In this document: positions 3,263-6,137 of the stretch, in pieces
How positions within the stretch are numbered: the stretch's first letter is position 1
How the letters are laid out: each line of letters opens with the position of its first letter
NCBI GenBank assembly: GCA_947089915.1
Contig: CAMUMB010000008.1
Location: forward strand, 1-35,243
Origin: an uncultured Caryophanales bacterium
GTDB taxonomy: Bacteria; Bacillota_I; Bacilli_A; RF39; UBA660
Direction: 5' to 3'
Length of the DNA: 35,243 nt
The notes under the pieces: model-generated
The model's database searches: none
What the model was told of the DNA's origin: nothing
What the model saw: the letters and a program-made list of their open reading frames with translations, nothing else
Program-made: the position numbers and the translations under genes

Positions 3263-4189
3263 ATGATTGATATACATTCACATACTATATATTCTGATGG
3301 GAGTTCGAATGTAGAAGAACTCTTGAATGAGGCACAAAAAGTTGGATTAAGTTTATTATCGATAACCGATCATAACACGATAGAGGCATATTCTGAACTA
3401 CAAAACCCGAATATAAGGAATAAATTTGATGGTCAAATAATACATGGAATTGAAATTACTACAACATACAATGGTGAAACAATAGAAGTGCTGGGATACG
3501 GTTTTGATTTGGAAATAATGCAACAGTTTTTGAATAATAACGTATTAACATTTGAAGAAAAACAATTAAAAGAATATGAATTAATCAAAAATCAATATAA
3601 AAAAATCGGTGTTATTTTTGATGAAAATAGTATTCAATTTGATCCAAAATTGGAATCTTGTAGGCCTGCTTTTGCAGTAGAAATAAAGAGGCATCCTGAA
3701 AACTATAAATTTTTCTTAAATCAAGAATCTATAAAAACAGATAGTGGATTTACTAGAAATGAAGTGTACAATCCTAAAAGTTTATTATATGTTGATGAAT
3801 CATCGTTATTTCCTAGCTTAGCAAAAGCAATCGAAATGATACATAAATCAGGTGGGCTTGCCTTTTTAGCTCATACATTTGCCTATTCTCCTAATATTGC
3901 AAACGATTTACTTAATATAATAACGAATTATGAATTGGATGGCGTAGAGTGTTTTTATACCACTTTTACAAAGGAACAATCGGATTATCTCGTAAAAGTA
4001 TGTGAAGAAAAAGGCATGTATATGAGTGGTGGCAGTGATTTTCATGGTACGAGAAAAATCAACCATAATTTGGGAATTGGACATGGTAATTTGTGCATTG
4101 ATGAAAATATAGTGAAAGATTGGATTCATAGATATTTACCAGATTTTGATGATTCCAAGTATAAGAACAAATCTATAGTAGATAGGTGA
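3263..4189 (+). CDS. PHP-domain metal-dependent phosphoesterase
   Basis: A 308-aa PHP-fold protein. Metal ligands are visible as HSH at residues 5-7 (MIDIHSHTIYSDGS), ITDHNT near 38-43, GIEIT near 67-71, LAHTFAY and the C-terminal GSDFHG. The family (YciV/TrpH-like) includes 3',5'-nucleoside bisphosphate phosphatases and 5'-3' RNases/oligonucleotidases; which substrate applies cannot be told from sequence. Length fits a single PHP domain with an insertion of about 80 residues around 90-190. The stop TGA lies inside the AGGTGAT Shine-Dalgarno of cca, whose ATG comes 4 nt later, so the two genes are likely translationally coupled. Confidence 0.85.
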   Translation: MIDIHSHTIYSDGSSNVEELLNEAQKVGLSLLSITDHNTIEAYSELQNPNIRNKFDGQIIHGIEITTTYNGETIEVLGYGFDLEIMQQFLNNNVLTFEEKQLKEYELIKNQYKKIGVIFDENSIQFDPKLESCRPAFAVEIKRHPENYKFFLNQESIKTDSGFTRNEVYNPKSLLYVDESSLFPSLAKAIEMIHKSGGLAFLAHTFAYSPNIANDLLNIITNYELDGVECFYTTFTKEQSDYLVKVCEEKGMYMSGGSDFHGTRKINHNLGIGHGNLCIDENIVKDWIHRYLPDFDDSKYKNKSIVDR

Positions 4190-4193
4190 TAAT

Positions 4194-4844
4194 ATGTATG
4201 AAGTAGCGCTTTCTCTACTCAAAAAAATCAATCAATTAGGATATGAGGCATATATCGTTGGAGGCTATCCTAGGGATATGTATATGGGTATTCCTAGCAC
4301 TGATATTGATATTTGTACTTCTATGTTACCAGATAGGATAGAAAAGAATTTTTCTATCGTAGAAAGTCATTCTGAATATGGGTCTTTTGTAATTGAAGAA
4401 GGTCAATTTCAATTTGAAGTAACCACCTATCGTAGGGATTATTATATCAACAATCGTTATCCCAAAATTGAATTTGTAGATTCTTTAAAAGAAGATTTAA
4501 ATAGAAGAGACTTTACAATGAATACATTATGTATTGATCAAAATGGTGAATATATAGATTTATTAGGGGCTAGAAAAGATATAGATCAAAAACAAATTCG
4601 TATGTTAGGAGATCCCAATATGAGACTGAAAGAGGACCCTCTTAGAATGATACGTGCACTTAGATTTGCCTCGGATTTTAACTTTGAAATCGAAAAGTCT
4701 TTATATGAAAGTATGATTCAAAATAGGAAATTATTAACTACACTTTCTTTATCTAGAATAAAAAAAGAAATGATAAAAATTCGCAATCAAAAGAAATGGA
4801 ATGAATGGATTCAATTACTTGATTTGTCTTCTTATTTGCCGTAA
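4194..4844 (+). CDS. cca: CCA-adding tRNA nucleotidyltransferase, C-terminally short
   Basis: A 216-aa class II nucleotidyltransferase. Visible motifs are GGYPRD (23-28), catalytic DID (37-39), RRDFTMN (104-110), DLLGARKDI (122-130) and EDPLRMIRALRFA (147-159), followed by SLSRIKKEM (185-193) of the neck. Bacillus-type CCA enzymes are about 390-400 aa; the body and tail domains that bind the tRNA elbow are absent, and the stop is followed directly by dnaD. The head and neck motifs needed for CTP/ATP addition all remain. It may be a minimal enzyme, an enzyme working with a separate partner, or a truncated gene. I see no remnant of the missing part in the 29 nt before dnaD. Position next to dnaD-nth-ponA-recU matches Bacillus gene order. 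Confidence 0.85.
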   Translation: MYEVALSLLKKINQLGYEAYIVGGYPRDMYMGIPSTDIDICTSMLPDRIEKNFSIVESHSEYGSFVIEEGQFQFEVTTYRRDYYINNRYPKIEFVDSLKEDLNRRDFTMNTLCIDQNGEYIDLLGARKDIDQKQIRMLGDPNMRLKEDPLRMIRALRFASDFNFEIEKSLYESMIQNRKLLTTLSLSRIKKEMIKIRNQKKWNEWIQLLDLSSYLP

Positions 4845-4873
4845 AATAATAACTATGGATTAGGGTGGTTTCT

Positions 4874-5521
4874 ATGATGGAAAAAATAATGAATTTATTA
4901 AAAGGAAATACAATGCAAATTCCTAAATTACTATTACTTAATTATAAAAAATTTGGTTGTAATGAAAAGGATTTGATTGTATTAATTTATTTATACAATG
5001 AGAAGGATATAAGCTTTAATCCAAAGAAGATTAGTGATGGACTCAATATTACTTTGCCAGAAGTTTTGGAATCCATTGATCATCTTTCTACTAATGGCAT
5101 TTTATCCATTCAGTTGAAGAAAAGCAGTGGAATTCGAGAGGAACAAATTGTGTTAGATGGTTTATATGAAAAAATGGCTTATTTGATATTAAATGAAGAA
5201 GAATCGGAAAATCAGTCTAAAACGATTTATGATTTATTTGAGCAAGAGTTTGGAAGAACGTTGTCACCAATGGAATATGAAATTATTGGAGGGTGGCGTG
5301 ATGCTGGTTTTGAACAAGATGTGATTGTTTTGGCTCTAAAGGAAGCAACTTATAATGGGGTATCCAATTTGCGTTATATCGATAAAATATTGTATGAATG
5401 GAAGAAAAAGGGAATTCATACCAAGGAGGATATTGAAAAGGATAGGGCTTCTTATCAAAATAAAAAAATAGAGAAAAAAGAATTATTTGATTACGATTGG
5501 TTGAATGATAACGATGAATGA
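4874..5521 (+). CDS. dnaD: DnaD-like replication initiation protein
   Basis: A 215-aa protein. The N-terminal half (about 1-100) looks like the winged-helix DnaD oligomerisation domain. The C-terminal half carries the DnaD/DnaB_2 helical domain: IYDLFEQEFGRTLSPMEYE, then IIGGWRDAGFEQDVIVLALK and YIDKILYEWKKKGI with the conserved YxxxILxxW element. In Bacillus, DnaD helps remodel DnaA/oriC and PriA forks and recruits the helicase loader. Start 4874 follows AGGGTGG with 5-nt spacing; a GTG at 4865 lies inside that site. The 3' end overlaps nth, as in Bacillus, where dnaD and nth are adjacent. Confidence 0.9.
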   Translation: MMEKIMNLLKGNTMQIPKLLLLNYKKFGCNEKDLIVLIYLYNEKDISFNPKKISDGLNITLPEVLESIDHLSTNGILSIQLKKSSGIREEQIVLDGLYEKMAYLILNEEESENQSKTIYDLFEQEFGRTLSPMEYEIIGGWRDAGFEQDVIVLALKEATYNGVSNLRYIDKILYEWKKKGIHTKEDIEKDRASYQNKKIEKKELFDYDWLNDNDE

Positions 5522-6137
5522 AGTAATGACTTATTTAGATGAATTGATACCGAGTCCTGTCTGTGAACTAGAATTTCACAAAGACTATGAACTATTGATG
5601 GCAGTTATGCTAAGTGCGCAAACAACCGATAAACGGGTTAATATGGTAACTCGGATATTATTTCAAAAATATCCTAATTTAGAAGCTTTGAGTAAGGCTG
5701 ATATAGAAGATATCAAGCAAATTATCAAACCGATTGGAACTTATCATAAGAAAGCCAGTAATGTGATTTTGATTGCTAAAGCATTGTTAGAAGATCAAAA
5801 CGGTGTTGTTCCCTATAATCGTAGTTATCTAGAAAGTCTGCCTGGAGTTGGAAGAAAAACAACGAATGTCGTTTTGAGTATGCTATATAATGAACCTTGT
5901 ATTGCAGTTGATACTCATGTATCTAGAGTAAGTAAACGGCTTGGATTTGCAAAGGAAAATGATGATGTTCTTGTAATTGAAAAAAAATTAATGAAAAAGA
6001 TTCCAAAAGATCAATTAAATAAAATGCATCATCAATTGCTTTTATTTGGTAGATATTATTGTAAGGCTCAAAATCCTTCTTGTTCTGTTTGTCAGTTACA
6101 GGAAAAATGTAAATATTATAAGAAAAAAGATAGTTGA
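5505..6137 (+). CDS. nth: Endonuclease III (DNA glycosylase/AP lyase)
   Basis: A 210-aa base-excision repair enzyme that removes oxidised pyrimidines and nicks the abasic site. Helix-hairpin-helix LPGVGRKTTNVV holds the catalytic lysine K118, and the catalytic aspartate D136 is in AVDTHVSRV. The C-terminal 4Fe-4S loop is intact: cysteines 186, 193, 196 and 202 in the C-x6-C-x2-C-x5-C pattern. Length is normal. The start overlaps the end of dnaD; ATG 5505 or 5514 are both possible, and neither has a strong ribosome site, so coupling to dnaD is likely. Confidence 0.95.
   Translation: MITMNEVMTYLDELIPSPVCELEFHKDYELLMAVMLSAQTTDKRVNMVTRILFQKYPNLEALSKADIEDIKQIIKPIGTYHKKASNVILIAKALLEDQNGVVPYNRSYLESLPGVGRKTTNVVLSMLYNEPCIAVDTHVSRVSKRLGFAKENDDVLVIEKKLMKKIPKDQLNKMHHQLLLFGRYYCKAQNPSCSVCQLQEKCKYYKKKDS

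Follow-up and report, generated by a model that had tools for sequence, protein, structure and literature searches.

A class-II tRNA nucleotidyltransferase reduced to its head and neck domains in an uncultured Caryophanales bacterium and its relatives

Can a CCA-adding enzyme still work after losing the half of the protein that reads the transfer RNA (tRNA), and if so, which part of the reaction does it still perform? This question is raised by the cca gene present in a 35,243-nucleotide stretch of DNA (contig CAMUMB010000008.1 of assembly GCA_947089915.1, hereafter the window) from an uncultured Caryophanales bacterium. The gene is an intact open reading frame (ORF) located on the + strand between the ATG at 4194 and the TAA at 4842–4844, in which 216 codons encode a protein of 216 residues consisting of the head and neck of a class-II tRNA nucleotidyltransferase. 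In the enzymes described so far, the body and tail are in charge of recognising the acceptor helix and the T helix, and the elbow is anchored by the tail (PMC3925840); current models hold these two domains to be essential for the choice of the tRNA and for the register. A natural family lacking them but evolving under selection, found in two groups of bacteria with small genomes, provides a system in which to ask which step (addition of CC, addition of A, termination or tRNA choice) requires them, and the short form represents an intermediate between the full CCA enzymes and the genomes devoid of the gene.

The head (palm or nucleotidyltransferase) domain, PF01743 (4248–4601), was recognised in residues 19–136, where the whole Pfam model PolyA_pol is covered with 88 bits, and the neck domain, PF12627 or PolyA_pol_RNAbd (4680–4823), in residues 163–210, which match positions 1–48 of the 64 in the model. 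The residues typical of a class-II head (GG..R... and DxD in motif A, RRDF..N in motif B) were found in motif A GGYPRD...DID (4260–4310), where the metal-binding Asp37 and Asp39 are invariant in short, mid-length and long forms, and in motif B, which the alignment identifies as RRDFTMN (4503–4523). Those typical of a class-II neck are also present, namely the EDxxR template, here motif D EDPLR (4632–4646), which is the amino-acid template for CTP and ATP, and motif E with the invariant Glu192 inside the neck. The flexible loop is one or two residues shorter than that of the Bacillus stearothermophilus enzyme (1miv) and carries the conserved Arg88 (4455–4457), which is kept in 17 of 18 short sequences (94%) and in all 25 proteins from f7, another family within this class of bacteria. 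From its position relative to the motifs, Arg88 would correspond to R105 of the human enzyme in the nomenclature of PMC11784652, where the flexible-loop Arg and EDxxR are reported to be needed for the switch from C to A.

The best NCBIfam model was that of the CCA enzyme PRK13299, matched at positions 6–216 of 396; the protein misses the equivalog cut-off (216.2 versus 290 bits) because its second half is missing. The ORF ends where the body domain would start, and both body and tail are absent, which amounts to about 150 residues if the long forms in its own family (about 360 residues) are taken as the reference, and to about 180 if textbook enzymes (about 400 residues) are. An AlphaFold model built with 24 locus-derived sequences had a mean predicted local distance difference test score of 94.9; it resembled 1miv with a template-modelling (TM) score of 0.91 over the query and a root-mean-square deviation of 1.5, and the human chains with TM scores of 0.82–0.86. 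The closest solved proteins were two CCA-adding enzymes, 1miv and 6ibp (from the psychrophile Planococcus halocryophilus), with residues 2–197 aligned, and all 46 PDB chains retrieved by the fold search at E<=0.001 have at least 342 residues. An earlier reading, made from the sequence only, had described the protein as head plus neck, with the nucleotidyltransferase and nucleotide-selection motifs retained and about 180 residues lost. The coordinates, the Pfam and NCBIfam matches and the fold agree with this description, the motifs being invariant or nearly so across the short forms, and the size of the loss holds for the textbook enzymes, the family's own long forms giving the lower figure.

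The genome of the window is an assembly of the metagenome-assembled type consisting of 79 contigs, and the stop might have resulted from an assembly error or a frameshift at about 4840. This explanation can practically be dismissed: the same end point, L-D-L-x-x-Y-L-[PS]-stop, occurs in all five genomes, each from a different species, of the genus, and no body or tail coding sequence is present anywhere in the assembly. Since dnaD (4874–5521, + strand, with an ATG at 4874, the ORF list giving a GTG at 4865 as the start) begins only about 30 nucleotides past the cca stop, a frameshifted body and tail of about 150 residues is excluded; dnaD is followed by nth (5505–6137, + strand), identified as endonuclease III from its ORF, NCBIfam match and gene order. 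The order cca-dnaD-nth is ancestral and is shared by most of the long-form relatives; therefore about 150 codons were deleted and the neighbours were left in place, and the short enzyme appears to have lost its body and tail by deletion. At loci L118 and L121 the cca frame reaches into the start of dnaD. No second PF01743 gene was detected in the assembly, and a profile search for a stand-alone body/tail protein gave no match in this genome or in 11 other short-form genomes of its family (f1), whereas five long-form controls matched at E<=1.6e-32. The same profile gave no match in the f7 genomes G042 and G053, but a profile made from f1 sequences may not recognise f7 proteins.

The sequence-only reading had taken the truncation for a clean loss rather than decay in a gene still in its usual place before dnaD, which is supported by the occurrence of the same truncation in the whole genus and in many other genera of the family, mostly beside an intact dnaD that lies so near that the lost 150 or so residues would not fit in between, by the spacing of dnaD, by the invariant motifs and by the substitution pattern described below. 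A 390-residue protein at this locus in relatives, with an error explaining the stop, would have told otherwise; the long-form relatives were found in other genera. Just 4 nucleotides upstream of cca lies a gene for a PHP-domain phosphoesterase (3263–4189), the best NCBIfam match of which is RNase RNM-like, far under the cut-off; it adjoins cca in this genome and in G003 only, and not in the three other species of the genus.

In an alignment including 18 short f1-type sequences, the catalytic residues found to be invariant in both long and short forms were G23, G24, R27, D37, D39, R80, D101, R104-D106, N110, D129, D148, R151, R154, R157, F158 and E192, and the 25 f7 proteins keep the same catalytic, template and loop residues almost without exception. 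Positions such as W205/Gly and L208 vary freely in the short forms and presumably face the lost half. Between the two nearest species (G000, the genome of the window, and G003), the ratio of nonsynonymous to synonymous substitution rates (dN/dS) was 0.157 for cca, 0.140 for dnaD and 0.079 for nth, deeper comparisons being near saturation; among f7 pairs, nonsynonymous differences (pN) were well below the near-saturated synonymous ones (pS). The cca gene is thus evolving faster than its neighbours, yet it is clearly constrained by purifying selection.

The short form extends throughout the genus and beyond. In f1, cca occurs in three sizes: about 360 residues, about 250–280 residues (head, neck and the first part of the body) and about 200–240 residues. 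Open frames of at most 278 residues were found in at least about 31 genomes belonging to at least 17 genera among the matches listed, a few of which may simply run off the end of a contig; long-form members also occur in some of these genera, g59 and g70 at the least. The mid-length genes (about 250–262 residues) of G005, G029, L115, L120, L123, L127, L131, L136 and L140 end just past a conserved Y-[PE]-[FY]-[ST] at the start of the body, which marks a recurrent second truncation point. More than 20 f1 genomes (G028, G117, G121 and G274, for example), some of them more than 90% complete, carry no detectable cca although their tRNA genes encode CCA. In f7, open frames of 199–270 residues occur in 101 of the 109 genomes with a match, from about 35 genera; the remainder comprise three frames of more than 400 residues, three of about 300 and two split or cut. 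The genomes G434, G452 and G512 of this family have a cca of 413–457 residues in place of the short form, either an ancestral copy or a transferred replacement. Among 144 sampled genomes of the class, full-length frames were present in nearly all the other families, but none in f4 and f15, which have no PF01743.

In the tree based on head and neck, 14 of the 18 short forms, all nine mid-length forms and five long forms fall into an f1 clade of 29 rows separate from f7, with a Shimodaira-Hasegawa-like approximate likelihood-ratio support of 99. In the approximately unbiased (AU) test, a single clade of all short forms was not rejected (p 0.27), the f1 short forms alone were compatible with one clade (p 0.49), and short and mid-length forms together were borderline (p 0.073). 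Since the AU test does not reject a single short-form clade, the two independent losses that we infer, in f1 and in f7, are based on taxonomy and local gene context and not on the gene tree.

Whether such an enzyme is required to build CCA or only to mend it depends on the tRNA genes. Among the 23 tRNA genes identified in the genome of the window, 22 end in CCA, and a pattern consisting of the T arm plus CCA gave 26 matches versus 24 tRNA matches, with a background of 0–3 per genome in most cases. In the short-form genomes the counts of the CCA pattern equal or exceed those of tRNAs, and similar ratios were obtained in long-form and enzyme-less genomes; the idea that the truncation tracks tRNA-encoded CCA was therefore rejected. 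The sole gene lacking CCA (L018:1500-1572, contig 19, about 5115–5186) is tRNA-like, its anticodon being called as four letters (aatt); it could be a tRNA that has degenerated or one that belongs to a mobile element. Where CCA is encoded, CCA enzymes are known to be retained for repair and quality control (PMC11784652).

The reading that we find the most likely, and reasonably probable, is that the protein is a functional minimal class-II tRNA nucleotidyltransferase, from which body and tail have been deleted and which now serves in the repair of CCA ends. Since the tRNA genes encode CCA, the short enzyme would be needed for repair and not for synthesis. The tRNAs would be born with CCA, and after nibbling at the 3' end the enzyme would restore A76, sometimes CA or CCA; the acceptor end, probably the only part of the tRNA contacted, would dock between head and neck, and the EDxxR template would select CTP or ATP. 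With no elbow to grip and no counting over three steps, the tail would no longer be needed: the body and tail could become dispensable because replacing A76 is a single addition, which does not involve holding the tRNA over several steps. In favour of this proposal, the full-length human enzyme can use mini- and microhelices, acceptor-like hairpins and non-tRNA RNAs (PMC4477674), and in nematodes an element of the catalytic core can make up for missing elbow contacts (PMC7730189). Three points weigh against it. Encoded CCA is general in the class, long-form and enzyme-less genomes included, so that it permits the truncation but does not predict it. The head and neck of the short forms are less basic than those of the long forms (net charges of 0.8 and -1.8 versus +5.5), and no compensating basic patch is evident. 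The 91% completeness of the genome limits the search for missing parts, although in one genome and not in twelve.

It has to be considered whether head and neck suffice to add the whole CCA, possibly after dimerising or with the help of some unrelated protein. The flexible-loop Arg and EDxxR, required in the switch from C to A, are retained, and a loop so close in length to that of 1miv is not of the CC-adding type. On the other hand, no class of tRNA gene here requires full synthesis of CCA, tail anchoring is considered necessary for holding the tRNA through the steps (PMC3925840), and no partner was identified, the upstream PHP gene being adjacent in two species only; we regard this reading as unlikely. 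A complete CCA-adding enzyme made of head and neck, with template, C-to-A switch and termination working without reading of the elbow, and fixed twice independently, once over most of a family, might be envisaged, but we regard it as rather unlikely.

Loss of the part that reads the elbow should loosen the choice of substrate, and the protein might therefore have taken on a new role as an RNA 3' nucleotidyltransferase of lower specificity, adding poly(A) or oligonucleotide tails. Bacterial poly(A) polymerases (PAPs) derive from the class-II CCA enzyme family, and the pcnB model TIGR01942 was matched with 131 bits. However, PRK13299 scored far higher (216 bits), the CCA-specific motifs are unchanged, and the stretch [LIV][LIV]G[RK][RK]F.[LIV].[LIV] downstream of motif A, which we take to be the signature of PAPs, was present in none of the 18 short and none of the 25 f7 sequences, which makes such a change of function improbable. 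Gradual erosion of the gene towards loss, the state reached by the genomes of the class without any CCA enzyme, would fit the side-by-side occurrence in f1 of forms of about 360, 260 and 216 residues and of no gene at all, the lack of PF01743 in f4 and f15, and the longer tree branches of the short forms. The dN/dS of 0.157, the invariant active site and the retention of the 199–270-residue form over most of about 35 f7 genera argue the other way, and we consider erosion improbable as well.

No report of a natural class-II enzyme made of head and neck only was found in the open-access literature, subscription papers lying outside the search. The protein shares its head and neck fold, motifs A–E and flexible loop with the class-II CCA-adding enzymes of Bacillota (PRK13299, 1miv, 6ibp), and its gene order with dnaD and nth with the long-form relatives of its family, but all the solved relatives retrieved by the fold search are full length whereas here body and tail are absent. 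Since this defining part was tested for and is missing, we call the protein a head+neck-only variant descended from class-II CCA-adding enzymes, and not a standard member. PcnB has the same head and neck fold, but the present protein scores lower with its model and lacks the presumed PAP-type signature and the PAP-specific C-terminal parts. The CCA-adding enzymes of nematodes (Romanomermis, Ascaris), in which an element of the catalytic core can compensate for missing elbow contacts with armless tRNAs (PMC7730189), also act without normal elbow contacts, as is predicted here; there, however, the tRNA is reduced and the enzyme's C-terminus kept or extended, whereas in the present case it is the enzyme that is reduced, the tRNAs having the normal cloverleaf form. 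A basic patch of the nematode kind was not seen, the short forms being the less basic ones. The CC-adding and A-adding enzymes of the Aquifex type belong to the same family and share the head and neck core, but they keep both body and tail. The loop of CC-adding enzymes is short and devoid of the Arg, while here the loop and R88 are kept, so that by its loop the protein is not of that type; the retained Arg and EDxxR argue against an activity restricted to CC, and in function the A-adding type may come closest.
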